Assembly (NCBI GenBank): GCA_014860585.1
Contig: JACZJL010000053.1
Span: forward strand, 1 to 64,000
DNA from: Bacteroidales bacterium
GTDB lineage: Bacteria; Bacteroidota; Bacteroidia; Bacteroidales; 4484-276
DNA: 64,000 nucleotides
Reading direction: 5' to 3'
Both the position numbers and the translations under genes were made by a program. Shown in pieces: positions 25,312 to 64,000 of this stretch (positions are counted from its first letter, which is position 1; the number at the start of each line of letters is the position of its first letter). Below the pieces are notes generated by a model, which saw only the letters and a list, made by a program, of their open reading frames with translations, was not told the origin of the DNA and searched no databases.

Positions 25312-25361
25312 TCCCGAATATTCGGGATAAAATTATAAAATGGTCCAAACCATTTTATAAT
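25312..25361. repeat. Two adjacent palindromes downstream of cysS
   Basis: A perfect 16-bp palindrome (25312-25327, half-site TCCCGAAT) is followed at once by a 13-bp perfect inverted repeat, ATTATAAAATGGT at 25332-25344 and its complement at 25349-25361, with a 4-base loop. Neither has a T-tract. Confidence 0.75.
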
Positions 25362-25412
25362 TACAATTGGTATAAAATGTAAACGAAAAATACTCCCTGC
25401 TTTGGTTGAATG

Positions 25413-55034: not shown

Positions 55035-56960
55035 TTAATAATTTGGATAATGAACACATCTTACACTGTTAGCATTATATGTCGAGTAGGCCGAAGTTCG
55101 TTTCACTCTTGCCTCATCATGACCCAGACTCCAGATGTAAAAAAAATTCCCTCCCGGAGCAACGGTTGACGACCAGAACCTTGCCGACTGTTTGAACTCC
55201 CGATACTCATAATTACTGTTGTCATAACGGTAGCCATAACCGGCTCCGACAGCGCGGAATCCGCTGGAATTTGTAGCCCCGGTATTCGGGGTAAGCCAAT
55301 AATCTGTGCCGTCTTTTTTCATTTTTCCACCTGCATCAGTTCCTGTCCAGTCGGTGGCATAACAGTCAACAGACCCGTCAAGGAATGTGGTGAGATTACA
55401 CCAGTCTTCATCTTGTGGTATAAACCATCCCATAGGGCAAATGCCCTGTTTGCGGTATTGCCCGATCTGGTATTGAATGGCTTCAAGGTAAATATATAAA
55501 CCGCCGTAAATATCGCAATTTGCAGGATCGTCATCGTAGCAATATTTTTGAATCTTCCCATCATAACCATTGACAGCTTCACTCAAAGGGATTTGTTCAC
55601 CGATATCCATATTGTCGGCCAGCCAGCAATAGTCGCCGATCAATTTTGTGTTGTAGGTTTTCCCGTTGCGATGGTCGGTTAACAACTCTCCACAATTAAA
55701 CGGTGAGAATTCAATTATGCATTCATCATAAGTTGCTGTACACTCATTGGATACGGTCCAGGCAAGCGCATAAGTTTCGCCTGGATATCCGTAGAACTCT
55801 GAATTTGGTTTGTATTCATATTCAAATATACCTTTTTTACCCTCGGAGTGGTTGCTTACGATTTTCCATTTCCCAGTGCCGTCAATGCCAGGGGTGGCGG
55901 CAAGAACCGTATAATTGGAATTGGCTATGATTTGATCCGGGCCCGCATTAGCCTGTCCTGGAATATCATCACAATCTTTCATGCATCTCACGCTGCCAAA
56001 GGGATAGGGTTCTGCCGGAATATCGGTGAAGTAGGCGCCGGCGCCAATGCTGGTCAGATAGAGCGCCGGTTTGTGGGGCGGGTTGTTCATACTTGAAGTC
56101 CAGATATAGCTGAGGTTATCTAATCCGAAACAATCTGACGGTCCTGTTAAACCCTGGTAATTGTATCCTGACCCAGCACCTCTGGCTGTAAAGTAACTCA
56201 AATTGGTGGCGCCGGTATTGGGATTGTTCCAGAAATTGATATCTTTTAAAGCTCCTCCGGCGCCATCATGCCCACCAAAAAGATCTATGAGAATCGAAAA
56301 TTCCTCCTGCGTGGGTATGTGGTATCCGGGGGGGCAGATGCCTTGTTTTCCGGGTATAGCCTCACCATAAAACATGGCTTCCCACCAATGGTAAAGTGCG
56401 CCGTAATTCTGGCAATTTGAAGGGTCATTGTCATAGCAATATTTTTCAATTTCATCATCGAGCCACGGCAGAAATTGATAATCAATCATAACGCCGGCAT
56501 TCAAATTTTTTTTCAACCAGCATTGGCCGCCAATCTGGATGGTTGGATATTCCTCACCCATAAAATTTATTGTTGATTGTCCCGGGCAAGGATTTCCCAG
56601 CGGGTAATACGCTCTCACTTCAATTTTAGCATTTTTTCGCTCTTGGTTTGGGTCATGTCGGTTAACATCGAAGGCAAAGTGTTTGTTATTGCCGGGCGGT
56701 ATTCCCGGACCATAATCGCCGCTGCAGTATTCAAACGGGATCAGCCCCATGTTGTAGTTGTTGGAATAGAGGACGGCCTGGATAATGTAACTGTCGTAGT
56801 ATCCGGCCAAATCGAAGAAAACGTCAATGGTGTCTGATCCATCAACGCGCTGTTGCGCCTGCACATTGTTGATTTCGCCTTTCCCCTGGCCGTAAGAACT
56901 CAAAACCAGGGAAAATGCAAACACCAGCAATGCCATTTTTTTGTAATGCTCATTTTTCAT
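55035..56960 (-). CDS. Secreted protein with two FISUMP domains
   Basis: A 641-residue protein from the ATG at 56960, where the signal peptide (ALLVFAFSLVLSSYGQ) begins; an upstream in-frame ATG adds a non-signal leader. Two copies of the Fibrobacter succinogenes major paralogous domain are present. The first follows GQCWLKKNLN (about residue 145-330), and the second follows GDYCWLADNMDIG (about 445-640). Each contains a Cys pair, a Trp-rich WWEAM/YIYLEAI segment, CPPGYHIPTQEEF or CPMGWFIPQDEDW, and ends SVRCMKD or SVRCVHY. The function of this secreted domain is unknown. The next gene encodes a T9SS-targeted protein. Confidence 0.85.
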   Translation of the reverse strand: MKNEHYKKMALLVFAFSLVLSSYGQGKGEINNVQAQQRVDGSDTIDVFFDLAGYYDSYIIQAVLYSNNYNMGLIPFEYCSGDYGPGIPPGNNKHFAFDVNRHDPNQERKNAKIEVRAYYPLGNPCPGQSTINFMGEEYPTIQIGGQCWLKKNLNAGVMIDYQFLPWLDDEIEKYCYDNDPSNCQNYGALYHWWEAMFYGEAIPGKQGICPPGYHIPTQEEFSILIDLFGGHDGAGGALKDINFWNNPNTGATNLSYFTARGAGSGYNYQGLTGPSDCFGLDNLSYIWTSSMNNPPHKPALYLTSIGAGAYFTDIPAEPYPFGSVRCMKDCDDIPGQANAGPDQIIANSNYTVLAATPGIDGTGKWKIVSNHSEGKKGIFEYEYKPNSEFYGYPGETYALAWTVSNECTATYDECIIEFSPFNCGELLTDHRNGKTYNTKLIGDYCWLADNMDIGEQIPLSEAVNGYDGKIQKYCYDDDPANCDIYGGLYIYLEAIQYQIGQYRKQGICPMGWFIPQDEDWCNLTTFLDGSVDCYATDWTGTDAGGKMKKDGTDYWLTPNTGATNSSGFRAVGAGYGYRYDNSNYEYREFKQSARFWSSTVAPGGNFFYIWSLGHDEARVKRTSAYSTYNANSVRCVHYPNY

Positions 56961-57014
56961 AAGAAATTGGGTTTTGGTTAATAATAGATGAATTGTAATT
57001 TTTATTGAACTGAG

Positions 57015-57046
57015 CAAAATTAATACAAAATCAAGCAATTTTGCAA
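57015..57046 (-). promoter_or_regulatory. Promoter of the FISUMP-T9SS gene pair
   Basis: On the minus strand TTG (complement of 57044-57046) and TAATTTTG (complement of 57015-57022) are separated by 21 bases, matching the Bacteroidota consensus well. The ATG at 56960 is 54 bases downstream of the box. Confidence 0.5.
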
Positions 57047-57127: not shown

Positions 57128-57164
57128 AAAAAAGCCGACCTGCATCACATTGATGCAGGTCGGC
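57128..57164 (-). terminator. Strong terminator after hppA
   Basis: A perfect 12-bp stem, GCCGACCTGCAT (57134-57145) and ATGCAGGTCGGC (57153-57164), followed on the minus strand by a run of T (complement of 57128-57133). It lies 27 bases past the hppA stop. Confidence 0.93.
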
Positions 57165-57191
57165 CTTTAAAAGTTTTGGATAAATCGCTTA

Positions 57192-59390
57192 CTAAAGCAG
57201 GTGATAAGAAACAGCCACACCCACAGTAACAACGGCAGCCATGGCCATGAGTTTGATGAGGATGTTAAGGCTTGGACCGGAAGTATCTTTGAACGGGTCG
57301 CCCACGGTGTCGCCGATAACGGCAGCTTTGTGGTTTTCGGAACCCTTTCCGCCATGGTGTCCTTCTTCGATGTATTTCTTGGCATTATCCCAGGCGCCTC
57401 CTGCATTAGCCATAAAGATGGCGAGTGCAAAGCCGCTTGTAGTTGTGCCGATCAGCAGACCGGTAACCCCGGCAACACCAAATACCAACCCAACTAAGAT
57501 GGGGATCAACAGAGCCATCAGCGAAGGAAGCATCATTTCCTGCTGGGCGCCTTTGGTCGAAATCGCAACGCAACGGGCATAATCAGGCTCAGTAGTGCCT
57601 TCCATGATGCCTTTGATTTCGCGGAACTGGCGACGAACTTCATCCACCATTTTCTGCGCAGCACGGCCAACAGCATTCATCGTCATACCGCTGAAAAGGA
57701 ATACCGCCATCACACCGATTAATATTCCAACAATAACCCGTGCGTTCATCAGATGTATTTCGTAGTGATAGATGAAATCGATGAAAGTGGCATCCTTTGC
57801 AGCTGTTCCATTGATCAGTGTATCGGGCTGATTCAGAAAATGTACAAACATCATCTTCACCTCTTCAAAATAAGCGGCAAGAAGTGCAAGAGCAGTAAGA
57901 GCGGCGCTTCCGATAGCAAAACCTTTACCTGTAGCTGCAGTAGTGTTTCCCAATGAATCGAGCGCATCGGTACGTTTACGCACCTCTTTACCCAGATGAG
58001 CCATCTCGGCATTACCACCTGCATTGTCGGCAATCGGACCATAAGCGTCGGTGGCGAGGGTGATACCTAATGTTGAAAGCATTCCCACTGCGGCTATACC
58101 GATTCCGTACAATCCGAAGTTGATGTCGGCTTTATCGAATGAGAATAGGGTCGGAGTGGCAAATCCGTAAGCAAGTGTGATGGCGATGGCAATGATTAAC
58201 AAAGGAAATGCTGTAGAGATTAGACCTGTGCCAATTCCCGAAATGATGATCGTAGCAGGACCTGTTTGGCTGGAAGCTGCAATCCGTTGGGTTGGTTTAT
58301 AGGCTGAAGCAGTGTAATACTCAGTGGATTGACCAATGCCAATACCTGCGAGCAGTCCGACAACAATCGAACCCCAGAGGCCTAAATAATTGGGAAGACC
58401 AAGGAAATATAAAATGACCAGTGAGAAAATAACAATCAGGCCGGCACTTACATTTACACCAAAACCTAATGCTTTGAGTAATTGTTTCTGGGTGGCGCCT
58501 TCTTTGGTTTTTACCATATAAACACCAGCGATCGAGAGCAAAGTACCAACAGCAGCGATCAACATCGGAGCAATAACGGCGCTGTATTGATTATCAAGGT
58601 AACCACCGGTGTAAGCAGCAGCTCCCAGGAGGGCTGTTGCAAGAATTGAACCGGCAAACGACTCAAAAAGGTCGGCGCCCATACCTGCAACGTCGCCCAC
58701 ATTATCACCTACGTTATCGGCGATGGTTGCAGGGTTGCGGGGATCGTCTTCAGGGATTCCGGCTTCCACTTTTCCTACAAGGTCAGCGCCAACGTCGGCA
58801 GCTTTTGTGTAGATGCCGCCGCCCACACGTGCAAACAGTGCCTGTGTGGAAGCACCCATGCCAAAGGTAAGCATGGTTGCGGTAATGGTTAACAACTGCA
58901 TCCCGGAAGTTGTTTCCGGAATAGCTAAGTTCAATACAGTGAACCAAATTGAAATATCGAGCAACACCAGTCCTACCACTGTTAGTCCCATGACGGCGCC
59001 GCTTCTGAAAGCAAGCCTGAGACCGGCATTGAGAGAATCACGGCAGGCGTTGGCTACGCGGGCTGAAGCATAAGTAGCTGCTTTCATCCCAAAGAAACCG
59101 GCAAGCCCCGAAAAGATACCTCCTGTGAGAAAAGCAAACGGAACCCATGGGTTCTGAATGTGTAGCACATAGGCCATGAAACTGAAAATGATCGTGATAA
59201 TGACAAAAACTACTCCCACAACTTTGTATTGCTGACGTAAGTATGCTCCGGCGCCCTTGCGAACGTGATGAGCAATGCGTTTCATCACATCAGTTCCTTC
59301 GCTGGCGCCCATCATCTGCTTGAAAAAAAAGTAAGCAAACCCAAGAGCAAGCACAGCACTGATTGGTGTTAACCAAAAAATTCCTGGCAT
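57192..59390 (-). CDS. hppA: Membrane-bound pyrophosphatase, K+-dependent ion pump
   Basis: A 732-residue integral membrane pyrophosphatase with about 16 membrane helices. The pyrophosphate-binding signature is intact: [20 protein letters not shown] followed by [19 protein letters not shown], and the second acidic cluster [16 protein letters not shown]. The sequence [10 protein letters not shown] has Ala where K+-independent pumps have Lys, so it should require potassium. Such enzymes pump Na+ or H+ into the periplasm; which ion cannot be decided by eye. An unusually strong Shine-Dalgarno AAAGGAGG precedes the ATG, and a strong terminator follows, so it is a well-expressed single gene. Confidence 0.95.
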
Positions 59391-59514: not shown

Positions 59515-60948
59515 TCACTGCTTTTTGAAAAGGTCATACTTGTTTAAGCTGATCTGAACCCTTTTGTAGCCTTCAGGAACATCCGCATTTAAAGTCTTTA
59601 ATTTCATAAAATACTCATTCTCCTCTCTCGGATCGAGTGATATGTTGAAATACCTGACCAAAAAACCCTCAAGAATAAAATTGTATTCGGAATACATTTC
59701 CTGCGGAACAGTGATGGCAGAAAGGCGCGGAACAACTTTCCCGATTTCATACACATCCGCCACAGTTTCTCTTTCACGCGAAACCTTTCCATATTGTGAA
59801 GCAGTGATGACAATTACTCCGGCCATCATTAAAATGGTGAGGAAGGTGAATATTCTGAACGCTTGTTTTTGTGAATTGATTTTTTCAATCCAGACTGCAA
59901 CCATGGGCGAGATCATCAGTGCAAAACCAATGGCAAAATAAGGAAATGCAGGGACGAGGTACCACCCTTTTTGAACCATGGTCGTTGCAAGTGGCGCCGA
60001 GCCTGAAAATCCAATCAGAAGAAAAACCAAAATGTTGCTGCTATGATTGGAAAATCCTGTTTTCATCTTTTTGAAAAATGCAACAGCCGAAACCACCGAA
60101 ACCATGATCATAACCGGAATCAGCTCTTTGACCAGCCTCCAGAGAATTTCGAGTCGGTAATCAGCTGTGGGCATCACATCCACCCGCATAAGCAACCGCT
60201 TAAACACATAGTTGGAAAGGCTTTCGCTGCTTTCCGGAAATAGAAACAGGACAACATAAATCGTCGCCGCAACGGCAAACAAAATTGCAGTTTGCCACAC
60301 ACTTTGCCAAAATCCGGTCTTTCGTAAAGTTAACCAGTAAAGAAAAGGAACGGCCAGCGGAAAAAGCCCGGGTATGCCTTTGGTGAAAGAGGCCAGGAAG
60401 ATCATCAATCCCGATCCGGCTAACAGGAAGATTTCGTTCCGCCTTGATTTGATGGCGTAAAAGAACAGCAGAACAGCAGCAAGGTCAAAAACACTCATGG
60501 TGTTTTCCATCATATTTCCCCGGAAAGACCAGAAACACACCGGAATGGTCATCCAGAACAATACCGGCAACCAGCCCAGTTTTCGTTGTCCATCTGATTT
60601 GGAAAAAATTTCTTTCCACAGCATATGGATCAAAAGAATATTGAAAACGATCATCAGGAGCGTATAAAACCTTTCAACATAAATTGAGCTGCCCAGCACC
60701 TTGAAAAACAGTGCCTGGATGCCGAACAGTAGCGGCGGATGCTCATGAAAAGAGGACAACCCGGCAATGTTCATTTTACTGTACTGTGGAAACCAGAACG
60801 TGCCGATGCCCTGGCTGAGATTGTGCGAAACGCTGCTGTAGAGCATCGCATCCTGGAACATCGCATCCTGGATCAGCACCGGAAGCGTCAGCCCAAAAAC
60901 CACGCTTAGGCTGAATATCCAAAAAGGGAGCTGTTTGTTTGTTTTCAT
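59515..60948 (-). CDS. GT-C-type (ArnT/GT39-like) membrane glycosyltransferase
   Basis: A 477-residue membrane protein with about 11 hydrophobic segments. After the first helix comes the acidic loop LPVLIQDAMFQDAMLYSSV, where such enzymes keep a catalytic Asp, then HEHPPLLFGIQALFFKVLGSSIYVERFYT, typical of the ArnT/PMT superfamily. It would move a sugar from a polyprenyl-phosphate donor to lipid, glycan or protein on the periplasmic side. QDAMF/QDAM is a short tandem duplication at DNA level (CATCGCATCCTGGA repeated 15 bases apart near 60844-60872). It stands alone upstream of hppA, 124 bases apart. Confidence 0.83.
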   Translation of the reverse strand: MKTNKQLPFWIFSLSVVFGLTLPVLIQDAMFQDAMLYSSVSHNLSQGIGTFWFPQYSKMNIAGLSSFHEHPPLLFGIQALFFKVLGSSIYVERFYTLLMIVFNILLIHMLWKEIFSKSDGQRKLGWLPVLFWMTIPVCFWSFRGNMMENTMSVFDLAAVLLFFYAIKSRRNEIFLLAGSGLMIFLASFTKGIPGLFPLAVPFLYWLTLRKTGFWQSVWQTAILFAVAATIYVVLFLFPESSESLSNYVFKRLLMRVDVMPTADYRLEILWRLVKELIPVMIMVSVVSAVAFFKKMKTGFSNHSSNILVFLLIGFSGSAPLATTMVQKGWYLVPAFPYFAIGFALMISPMVAVWIEKINSQKQAFRIFTFLTILMMAGVIVITASQYGKVSRERETVADVYEIGKVVPRLSAITVPQEMYSEYNFILEGFLVRYFNISLDPREENEYFMKLKTLNADVPEGYKRVQISLNKYDLFKKQ

Positions 60949-60978
60949 TTTTCGCCAAAAAGTTCATAAACAGAAGCG

Positions 60979-60986
60979 CAAAAGTA
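60979..60986 (-). promoter_or_regulatory. Putative -7 box (TACTTTTG) for the GT-C gene
   Basis: The minus strand reads TACTTTTGCG, matching TAnnTTTG, 30 bases before the ATG. Confidence 0.45.
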
Positions 60987-61067
60987 ACAGAATTGGAATT
61001 TCATGGAAAATGGAAAAGGCAAAAGATAATCAGAAACACAGACTTGAGGTTAAGCTGAACGTGTGTT

Positions 61068-61090
61068 CGGACGAGGCTCAGCCTCGTCCG
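61068..61090. repeat. Palindrome 1: CGGACGAGGCT arms
   Basis: CGGACGAGGCT at 61068-61078 and its exact complement at 61080-61090 flank a single base. It is GC-rich against an AT-rich background. Confidence 0.85.
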
Positions 61091-61098
61091 GTTTATTA

Positions 61099-61118
61099 TG
61101 GCAGGCTCCAGCCTGCCA
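61099..61118. repeat. Palindrome 2: TGGCAGGCT arms
   Basis: TGGCAGGCT at 61099-61107 and its complement at 61110-61118 are separated by two bases; it begins 8 bases after palindrome 1. Confidence 0.85.
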
Positions 61119-61162
61119 GGGAAAAGAAATCCAGACAATTTCCGGTTTTCGAAAAAGGATTT

Positions 61163-61195
61163 AGACCTGACAGGTTTCAAAAACCTGTCAGGTCT
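61163..61195. repeat. Palindrome 3: AGACCTGACAGGTTT hairpin (CCTGACAGG family)
   Basis: A perfect 15-bp inverted repeat (61163-61177 and 61181-61195) with a 3-base loop. Its core matches the repeat at 6764-6844, showing that this element is dispersed in the genome. Confidence 0.9.
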
Positions 61196-61244
61196 GCCGA
61201 CAACCTTAGTAGAGATGACCGACACTAAAAGTTATCAAACCTTA

Positions 61245-61266
61245 TCCCAAAGGGATCCCTTCGGGA
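61245..61266. repeat. Palindrome 4: near-perfect 22-bp palindrome
   Basis: A 22-base palindrome centred on AAGGGATCCCTT with a single mismatched pair (A at 61249 against C at 61262). Confidence 0.8.
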
Positions 61267-61289
61267 TTGCCTTATTTTCAATGGATTGA

Positions 61290-61325
61290 GCCCTGACAGT
61301 CCCGCACGTGCGGGACTGTCAGGGC
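61290..61325. repeat. Palindrome 5: perfect 36-bp palindrome
   Basis: The left half (61290-61307, starting GCCCTGACAGTCCC) is exactly complementary to the right half (61308-61325). There is no unpaired centre. Four T residues follow, so it might also work as a weak plus-strand terminator, but no plus-strand gene lies upstream. Confidence 0.92.
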
Positions 61326-61427
61326 TTTTCATGCAGAGCCTGATCAAAAATCCACGTTTGAAACAAAATAATTTTGATTTTCCCGGACTAACCGGATGGG
61401 TGATAAATTTACTTTTTTACCTTTGGC

Positions 61428-61435
61428 GATCATTT
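61428..61435 (+). promoter_or_regulatory. Putative -7 box (TACCTTTG) for the terminal BNR gene
   Basis: TACCTTTGGC fits TAnnTTTG and ends 40 bases before the ATG at 61476. Confidence 0.45.
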
Positions 61436-61475
61436 GATCGTTGAACTTTTTCAATTAAACTACAAATCATTTGCT

Positions 61476-64000
61476 ATGAGAAGATTTACTATTGTTCTGC
61501 TGACTTTAGCTTTCTTTTTATCCTTTACCGGCATTGGCTTTGCTCAAACTGCCAAGAGTGATCAGCCCCTGTCATCCGAAACATTTTCAGGGCTAAAATT
61601 TCGCAGCATCGGCCCGGCGCTGATGTCTGGGAGAATTGCTGATATTGCCATTCATCCGGAAAACAACAACATCTGGTACGTGGCTGTTGGTTCGGGTGGA
61701 GTATGGAAAACCATCAACTCCGGCACTACCTGGACTCCCATTTTCGATAACCAGGGTTCGTATTCTATTGGCTGTGTAACCGTTGATCCTTCTAACCCGA
61801 ATGTGATTTGGGTGGGAACGGGCGAAAATGTAGGTGGCCGGCATGTGGGCTATGGCGATGGCATTTACCGTAGCGCTGATGGCGGCGCCACCTGGCAAAA
61901 CATGGGATTAAAGACATCCGAACATATTTCCAAAATCATTGTTCACCCAAAAAATCCTGATAATATCTGGGTTGCAGCCCAGGGGCCGCTTTGGTCTAAA
62001 GGTGGCGAACGTGGTGTGTTTAAGACTACCGATGGTGGAAAAACCTGGAAGCGCACCCTTGGCGATGACCAATGGGTTGGCGCCACCGACATTATGATTG
62101 ACCCGCGCAATCCCGACCTGCTTTATGCTGCAACCTGGCAACGGCACAGAACCGTTGCCGCCTACATGGGAGGTGGACCCGGAACAGGAATTTACCGCTC
62201 TTATGATGGTGGTGAAACATGGGAGCGCCTCACCAATGGACTCCCTGCTTCCACCATGGGGAAAATTGGTATTGCCATTTCCCCTCAGCAACCGGATGTC
62301 ATTTATGCCGCCATCGAACTCGACCGGCGCTCAGGTGGAGTTTATCGCAGTGTCGACCGTGGTTCAAGCTGGACTAAGCAATCGGATGTTGTTGCTGGTG
62401 GAACCGGTCCTCACTATTACCAGGAACTTTACGCATGTCCACATCAGTTCGACAGGATTTACCTGGTGGATGTGAGGTTAAGGATTTCGGACAATGGCGG
62501 GAAAACATTCAGGCGAATGCACCATCGCTTTACCCATGTTGACAATCATGCCATTGCCTTCAAAGCCGATGACCCGAATTATATATTGCTTGGCAACGAT
62601 GGCGGGCTGTACGAAACATACGATCTGCTCGAAAACTGGAAATTCGTGTCTAACCTTCCCGTGACGCAGTTCTATAAAGTTGCTGTTGACGACGACGAGC
62701 CTTTTTACAATGTGTACGGTGGCACCCAGGACAACAATACACAGGGAGGCCCTTCAAGGACTGATAATGTGCATGGCATACGCAATGCCGACTGGTTTAT
62801 TACTTTAGGTGGCGATGGCCATCAACCGGCCACAGAGCCTGGTAACCCTGATATTATCTATTGTCAGTCGCAGCAAGGCTATCTCAACCGTTTCGACCGG
62901 ACAACCGGTGAGACGGTCCTAATCCGTCCTCAACCCGGGGAAAATGATGGAGTGGAACGTTTCAACTGGGATGCTCCCATTTTGGTCAGTCCGCACAAGC
63001 CTTCGAGAATTTATTTTGCTTCGCAGCGCGTGTGGAAATCGGAAGACCGGGGAGATTCATGGACAGCCATCTCCGGCGATCTCACAAAAAGTCAGGAACG
63101 AATCACCCTTCCCATCATGGATAAAACCTGGAGTTGGGACTCCCCATGGGATTTTTACGCCATGTCGGATTACAACAGCATCACCTCACTGGCCGAATCT
63201 CCGTTGCAGGAGGGATTGATCTACGCCGGCACCGACGACGGGATTGTTCAGGTTACGGAAAATGGAGGAGACAGCTGGCGGAAAATTGAGGTCGGAACCC
63301 TGCCCGGCGTTCCTGCTACAGCTTTTGTTAACGATATTAAAGCTGATCTCTTTGAAGTAAATACTGTTTACATCGTGCTTGATAATCATAAATATGGTGA
63401 TTTCAATCCTTATGTGTTGAAAAGCAGCGACAAAGGGCAAACCTGGACTTCAATAAAAAGCAACCTGCCCGAAAGAACACTGGCATGGCGGATTGTCCAG
63501 GATCATGTGAAAAAGGAATTGATGTTCCTTGCAACAGAATTTGGTATCTGGTTTACGATCGATGGTGGAAGCCAATGGATTCAACTCAAAGGCGGCCTGC
63601 CGGTCATCTCTTTCCGCGATCTGGCCATTCAGCGGCGCGAAAACGATCTTGTCGGGGCTTCTTTTGGGAGAGGTTTTTACATCCTGGATGACTACAGCGT
63701 TTTGCGCAGTGTGACCCAAACTCAGCTACAGGAAGAGGCCACCCTTTTCCCGACCCGAAATGCCTGGTGGTACATCCAGCGAAACCTTCTCGGGTACTCG
63801 CAGAAAGCTTCTAAAGGCGATGCCTATTTTGTGGCTGACAACCCTCCTTTTGGCGCTGTTTTCACCTACTATTTGAGGGATACCTTTGAAACAAAAAAAT
63901 CGCATCGTCAGAATACAGAAAAAGAACTTGCTGCTCAAAACAAAGACATCCCCTTCCCCGGTTGGGATACTGTGGAGGAAGAGCGTTTAGAGGAAAATCC
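61476..64000 (+). CDS. Secreted BNR/sortilin-like repeat protein, 3' end beyond window
   Basis: An open frame of at least 841 residues from the ATG at 61476 to the window edge, with no stop codon. A signal peptide (IVLLTLAFFLSFTGIGFAQ) is followed by FRSIGPALMSGRIADIAIHP, the usual start of the large glycosyl-hydrolase-labelled VPS10/sortilin-type proteins. Asp-box motifs recur: TINSGTTW, SADGGATW, TTDGGKTW, SYDGGETW and later TIDGGSQW. Two beta-propellers are likely. The family is common in Bacteroidota, usually about 1000-1100 residues, with no proven activity. The missing end may hold a sorting domain, which cannot be checked here. Confidence 0.88.
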   Translation, partial: MRRFTIVLLTLAFFLSFTGIGFAQTAKSDQPLSSETFSGLKFRSIGPALMSGRIADIAIHPENNNIWYVAVGSGGVWKTINSGTTWTPIFDNQGSYSIGCVTVDPSNPNVIWVGTGENVGGRHVGYGDGIYRSADGGATWQNMGLKTSEHISKIIVHPKNPDNIWVAAQGPLWSKGGERGVFKTTDGGKTWKRTLGDDQWVGATDIMIDPRNPDLLYAATWQRHRTVAAYMGGGPGTGIYRSYDGGETWERLTNGLPASTMGKIGIAISPQQPDVIYAAIELDRRSGGVYRSVDRGSSWTKQSDVVAGGTGPHYYQELYACPHQFDRIYLVDVRLRISDNGGKTFRRMHHRFTHVDNHAIAFKADDPNYILLGNDGGLYETYDLLENWKFVSNLPVTQFYKVAVDDDEPFYNVYGGTQDNNTQGGPSRTDNVHGIRNADWFITLGGDGHQPATEPGNPDIIYCQSQQGYLNRFDRTTGETVLIRPQPGENDGVERFNWDAPILVSPHKPSRIYFASQRVWKSEDRGDSWTAISGDLTKSQERITLPIMDKTWSWDSPWDFYAMSDYNSITSLAESPLQEGLIYAGTDDGIVQVTENGGDSWRKIEVGTLPGVPATAFVNDIKADLFEVNTVYIVLDNHKYGDFNPYVLKSSDKGQTWTSIKSNLPERTLAWRIVQDHVKKELMFLATEFGIWFTIDGGSQWIQLKGGLPVISFRDLAIQRRENDLVGASFGRGFYILDDYSVLRSVTQTQLQEEATLFPTRNAWWYIQRNLLGYSQKASKGDAYFVADNPPFGAVFTYYLRDTFETKKSHRQNTEKELAAQNKDIPFPGWDTVEEERLEEN

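Follow-up and report, generated by a model that had tools for sequence, protein, structure and literature searches.

Why five palindromes should be packed into one intergenic gap is the question raised by the window analysed here, i.e., the whole 64,000-nucleotide stretch of a Bacteroidales genome. As previously described, the gap lies between divergent genes, which encode a PMT_2-type membrane protein (minus strand) and a Sortilin/Vps10 BNR protein (plus strand). An inverted-repeat search combined with scripts recovered all five perfect or near-perfect palindromes at 61068-61326 (Table 1). The preliminary description called their sequences unrelated, which proved wrong on two points: A2 and A3 have the common core AGGC-n-GCCT, and B and D have the outer arm AGnCCTGACAG in common. 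At the script threshold, 10 palindromes were detected in the window, 5 of which form the gap cluster, and five first-order Markov controls of window length gave 6, 1, 2, 3 and 2. Palindrome scores in the gap were 11, 9, 15, 9 and 19, and all those of the Markov controls were 11 or less.

Table 1. Features of the gap and its flanking genes (window positions; A to D, palindromes; T, inverted repeat described in the text)
Feature	Position	Strand	Remark
Left flanking gene, PMT_2-type membrane protein	59515..60948	-	context only
Remnant of composite 5' part	61025..61067	+	A0 and A1 deleted in window copy
Composite palindromic repeat, truncated copy	61040..61331	+	inner A-type palindromes, then right half of T with B, C, D
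Palindrome A2, CGGACGAGG family, core AGGC-n-GCCT	61068..61090	.	23 bp, 1-base centre
Palindrome A3, TGGCAGGCT family, core as in A2	61099..61118	.	20 bp, 2-base centre
Palindrome B, A-R-ACCTGACAGGTTT-nnn-AAACCTGTCAGGT-Y-T	61163..61195	.	33 bp, 3-base centre; cross-phylum repeat
T block 2, ACAACCTTAGTAGA, composite scaffold	61200..61213	.	matches array upstream of C164 Y1 gene
Outer T end, CCTTAT...TGCCTTATTTTC, split by palindrome C	61240..61279	.	same end uninterrupted elsewhere
Palindrome C including preceding AT	61244..61267	.	24 bp, one mismatched pair
22-bp insertion CCCnnnGGGATCCCnnnGGGAT, palindrome C without preceding AT	61246..61267	.	filled and empty sites, same genome
Palindrome D, centre TCCCGCACGTGCGGGA nested in arms AGCCCTGACAG...CTGTCAGGGCT	61289..61326	.	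perfect 38 bp
Right flanking gene, Sortilin/Vps10 BNR-repeat protein	61476..63998	+	extends past window; context only

Copies and modules of the composite repeat

When the palindromes were searched against the genome, as had been proposed, their families were indeed found at other places. In the assembly to which the window belongs (G000; 4.7 Mb, 194 contigs, with C53 as the window contig), the query 60900-61500 gave 72 matches, and the block 61040-61331 occurred at nine other places with its order kept, ~70-90% identity and homologous spacers. These copies lie on contigs C184 (four), C10 (two), C133 (two) and C98 (one), the best match being C184:23891-24148 (90% over 259 bp), and the two on C10 being 104-340 (82%) and 1306-1566 (73%). 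This shared order, together with homologous spacers at nine other loci, implies that the palindromes arrived as one block, and the five are thus best read as modules of one composite and not as five separate arrivals in the gap.

An alignment of the ten copies placed two further palindromes, A0 (GCAGGCnGGAGCCTGC) and A1 (CAGCTTAGGCTGGAGCCTAAGCTG), 5' of the window palindromes in most other copies, indicating that the original composite was longer than the window copy, which has lost both. Across the ten copies, A2 and A3 are always present, A1 is found in 8, D in 4, B in 3 and C in 2 (the window 'A0' match, which overlaps A3, was left out of the count), and by this comparison the block varies through gain and loss of modules. 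A0, A1, A2 and A3 differ in their outer arms around one core (AGGC-n-GCCT), B and D have common outer arms around different centres, and yet another centre lies between D arms on C184 (L028 5462-5494). Two-sided changes at pair 2 keep the stems in 5 of 12 A1, 5 of 17 A2 (G-C/A-T) and 13 of 31 B copies, counted over copies from this genome and its relatives. Conservation of all five palindromes as one block with compensatory changes had been put forward as the mark of a single structured RNA; this applies only in part, since within the genome the palindromes do keep one block order, yet many copies lack modules and the compensatory changes fall within single palindromes.

A2 has 10 copies in its own genome and was found in 4 of 247 genomes from the order; a search of the named genomes with the composite pattern gave no match, nor did a search of the viral contigs with A2. 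Note that composite copies of like orientation have small toxin-antitoxin-like open reading frames between them (L028 4375-4772 and L029 431-1044), and that these frames resemble HicA/HicB and RelE/ParE when named by translation only.

Scaffold T and the Y1 genes

The spacers of the composite correspond to half of a ~185-bp inverted repeat, T (ACAACCTTAGTAGA ... CCTTAT-TA-CCTTATTTTC), which has inverted ends and three AAGGTT-type blocks per half, is complete at, e.g., C71:10232-10427 (L233; fold z -8.2), and was found in 17 of 40 relatives. Comparison of 25 T ends (CCTTAT...CCTTATT) showed that 6 carry an identical 22-bp insert, which is palindrome C, and that 19 are empty, with TA (17), TG (1) or TCA (1) between the CCTTAT blocks. 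The insert is present at both ends of one T on C62 and at one end on C112 and C173, with AT on either side. Palindrome C is an exact 22-bp insertion, with filled and empty sites within one genome, and B in the composite replaces ~30 bases of T and is not a clean insertion. An odd cluster thereby becomes a readable history, with one genome holding occupied as well as empty sites, together with half elements and palindromes from several families nested in one another. In addition, TTCACCCCGTGAA-type palindromes flank T in this genome (L233, L035), and a sequence like theirs, TTTACCCCGTGAAA, is the repeated word found most often at a Y1 locus (L068) of genome G024.

The same genome holds three intact Y1_Tnp (IS200-like Y1/HUH) genes, on C164 (5973-6386), C32 and C26, and a broken one. 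All three intact proteins match PF01797 and have the signature Y---Q--HH, with DHIH as HUH motif in two of them and EHIH in the C164 protein. In PMC6006769, Y---Q--HH is the signature of Y1 subclass 1.2, whose features are a DH[IV]H-type HUH motif and low copy number, and which is generally without typical terminal hairpins and without associated REP sequences. Our three proteins fit this subclass in signature, HUH-type motif and low copy number. Against the NCBIfam RAYT model NF047646 (cut-off 80), the C26 protein scored 28.8 bits and the C32 and C164 proteins gave no match, the C164 protein just missed the IS200 model (50.1 vs the cut-off of 55 bits), and no relative of it was found in the PDB at E 0.001.

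Each intact gene has its own local repeats, i.e., T around the C164 gene, CAACCTCGAAGAGGTTG and others around the C32 gene, and AGGTGCAGCGCACC-type sequences around the C26 gene; members of the C32 array recur on C138, C94 and C44, and the C26 array is almost purely local. The array upstream of the C164 gene consists of T copies and has 38 matches in the genome (a palindromic query may match one place twice), with one in the window at C53:61201-61245 (E 4.1e-4). The two closest orthologues of the C164 gene, in G027 (70% identity) and G013 (69%), which belong to families other than that of the host, have T copies on both sides, and the presence of T next to this Y1 gene in all three genomes supports the link between the two. 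In G006, T matches also adjoin fragments of Y1 genes on C608, C297 and C1123, as if T had been inserted into, or remained from, decayed Y1 genes. Speaking against a strict link, 19-24 T matches were found in each of three further genomes (G003, G008 and G011) that lack a close C164-type Y1 gene, and G011 gave neither a match to the C164 protein nor any Y1 match.

Arrays of this kind are not limited to T. From 33 Y1 loci, 16 with the Y---Q--HH motif were scored for flank repeats, leaving out 14 at which no gene was picked up by motif, two of another motif type (L074 and L075), and one of the pair L058 and L076, which are the same gene. Eight of the 16 (L058, L062, L064, L066, L067, L068, L077 and L078) exceeded the control maximum of 0.071 (control means 0.007 and 0.003), L063 equalled it to rounding, and 7 were below. 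Repeat arrays were read at L066, L067, L077 and L078, with fixed-order blocks of five unlike palindromes at L066 and three at L067, an architecture like that of the window gap. Thus, Y1 genes of subclass 1.2 are often located here within multi-palindrome arrays, which departs from the lack of REPs and terminal hairpins ascribed to the subclass. In a motif scan of the 33 loci, the only trace of a B, C or D centre was a B half-motif in L059, and an A core matched once in each of 3 loci. The flanks of the L075 Y1 gene, which has another motif type (YVLRNP), are likewise very rich in repeats (score 0.316).

Our repeats can be compared with elements of kinds already known, namely REP arrays, BIMEs, REPtrons and TIRtrons. 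Like REP/REPIN sequences and their RAYT (TnpA-REP, REPtrons), they are dispersed intergenic palindromes, with arrays beside a single-copy Y1/HUH gene and inverted pairs (T), but the Y1 proteins have the signature of subclass 1.2 and stay below the RAYT cut-off, and the window unit combines several unlike palindromes. Many intergenic copies, as expected of REPs, are found for B, A2 and the T array, and a Y1 gene flanked by the same repeats is found for T (G000, G027 and G013) but not for the five window palindromes. The tetranucleotide GT[AG]G at the 5' hairpin foot is missing from all five window palindromes. Within T, the sequence CCTTAGTAG is present in G000 and G013, and the upstream copies in G027 read CCTTAATAG. 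CGTC-tagged REPs have CGTC at one end of the palindrome, and in A2 it occurs within the arm, not at the end. As in the BIMEs of enterobacteria, a mosaic of palindromic motifs is repeated as a block (here in 10 composite copies), but BIMEs alternate one REP family in orientation, which is not seen here, where the modules are the unlike families A, B, C and D with a clean nested insertion. The TIRtrons with their TIRYT, as presented in PMC3733652, where a motif GGGGWSAS is given, likewise have Y1 genes bordered by inverted repeats, and these repeats make up dispersed families, some of them self-complementary. T is distinguished by three AAGGTT-type blocks per half. A partial literature search found no description of REP-type arrays for subclass 1.2, of T or of the composite. 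In cyanobacteria, the very short palindromic elements known as SDRs reportedly insert into other repeats without a known transposase; compared by description only, they resemble our modules as short palindromes nested in other repeats and differ in host phylum.

Palindrome B across phyla

B (ACCTGACAGG arms) has 16 copies in its own genome and was found in 20 of 395 Bacteroidota genomes, and the reversed pattern gave no match. In named genomes, it was found in at least 117 stretches from several phyla. Among the 80 matches listed, record titles assign 42 to gammaproteobacteria (mostly giant sulfur bacteria), 22 to Bacteroidota, 14 to Chloroflexota, and one each to a Balneolaceae and a betaproteobacterium; many are metagenome bins, and isolates of Flavobacterium, Cyclobacterium and Gelidibacter are included. 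It was also found in 6 viral contigs, one of which shows three tandem copies at 51-base steps in a GC-rich background (L263 12949-13081). As a plasmid passenger, B was searched in a plasmid collection, which gave no match at E up to 1.

The edge pair of B covaries among 127 copies with distinct flanks (G-C 62, A-T 60 and A-C 5), this set being without copies less than 30 bases from a locus end and without flank duplicates. Of the 127 copies, 122 have A as the adjacent left-hand base and 124 have T as the right-hand one, with no strong consensus farther out. No target duplication of at least 3 bp was found above chance at these copies, except one 5-bp case. B places were outside open reading frames of at least 80 aa in 110 of 132 cases, although such frames cover 85% of the sequence, with 9 places between divergent and 23 between convergent genes. 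No neighbouring protein cluster, such as a transposase, recurred in more than 4 of the 117 listed loci. B stands at the centre of longer inverted repeats in 15 of 125 cases at a score of at least 12, vs 2.0 for shuffled partners, but the direct-repeat comparison likewise gave 7. At L183 2931 and L186 346, B is centred in long perfect inverted repeats with arms of at least 15 bases and otherwise unlike sequence, as if it had primed the copying of its own flank.

These observations tentatively suggest, with more doubt than confidence on our side, that B may be a stand-alone 33-bp element that spread between phyla nearly unchanged and landed between genes without target duplication, through a process encoded by the host or borne by replication and not through a linked transposase, and that with A, C and D it might build nested mosaics on the repeats of subclass-1.2 Y1 genes, a REP-type system new for this subclass. 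A partial literature search found no description of B. Common to several phyla almost letter for letter and without a known carrier, B provides a way to ask how geneless sequences spread between distant bacteria.

Origin of the cluster and competing readings

Altogether, we consider it probable (roughly 0.75) that the five palindromes represent modules in a mosaic of the REP/BIME-like kind, scaffolded by half of T, a repeat belonging to the subclass-1.2 IS200-like Y1/HUH transposase encoded on C164, and that A to D came into or beside T before the finished composites were copied. IS200/IS605 and TnpA-REP proteins cut and join folded single strands. By analogy, the Y1 protein would cut and join such strands at the replication fork (lagging-strand template), T being the presumed substrate of the C164-type protein, and A to D would enter T-containing intergenic DNA as a tolerated target. 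The composite would then spread to other intergenic sites, the window gap included, by Y1 activity or recombination. The same analogy for Y1 action is drawn from PMC6006769. The location of T in three genomes speaks for the first step of this scheme, and the later steps are an inference. On C184, C10 and C133, where the copies lie close together, the composites could have been multiplied by homologous recombination without any other process. T is, in any case, a candidate substrate for a Y1 subclass reported without REP sequences.

The inverted ends of T and the AT on both sides of the C insertion, as in some DDE elements, would also agree with a MITE-like composite moved by an ordinary DDE transposase, the Y1 genes being mere neighbours. 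We regard this as unlikely, given that orthologous Y1 genes in three genomes have T at their side and that the 127 B copies show no excess of target duplications. A landing zone, in which five palindromic elements were inserted singly into this gap, was the suggestion of the preliminary description, and part of it stands: its palindromes do belong to dispersed families, and T received C by clean insertion. The gap itself is not supported as the target, since the same order and homologous spacers at nine other loci need a block that arrived ready-made, with the landing in a repeat that was copied afterwards, and separate insertion here is quite improbable.

Strong folding (z -10.2 for the composite block as single-stranded DNA and -10.0 as RNA) and 6 terminator-like sites vs 1.1 expected would suit one structured RNA or a regulatory region of the flanking genes, such as stacked terminators or an attenuator. 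Folded singly, A2 (z -5.9), A3 (-3.5), B (-7.7) and D (-9.4) are also strong, and C alone is a weak hairpin (-0.57). This reading is nonetheless very improbable, as elsewhere the block adjoins unrelated genes, and the ~1.5 kb preceding five right-hand-gene orthologues contained, taken together, one unrelated hairpin or palindrome, one run of N and nothing else. A single structured RNA was rejected on the absence of an Rfam family match in the gap and of some modules from many other copies. The earlier statement that the cluster is not a single regulatory hairpin agrees with the palindrome families found elsewhere and with the empty C sites in the same genome. In five relatives (L096-L100), the stretch beside the right-hand-gene orthologue showed no homologue of the left-hand gene, and the comparison of the gap proposed in the preliminary description yielded no empty orthologous site.

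Last, attC-like recombination sites of an integron, to which the composites on C184, C10 and C133 facing one way, some around small toxin-antitoxin-like genes, and the spacing on C184 and C10 could point, are hardly credible and were rejected, since no IntI (TIGR02249) passed the cut-off in the genome, the 8 partial matches have counterparts in 14 of 14 control genomes, and the window copy stands alone between ordinary genes.

Two other palindromic sequences of the window may be mentioned. A strong 39-bp hairpin at 57130-57168, between the minus-strand genes 57192-59390 and 55035-57038, is likely the terminator of gene 57192-59390. Near a tRNA, the palindrome AATTATAAAATGGTCC...ACCATTTTATAATT (25331-25362) has a second copy on C184 (L028 11761-11793) and is another dispersed family, the C184 copy lying a few hundred bases from a copy of the composite.
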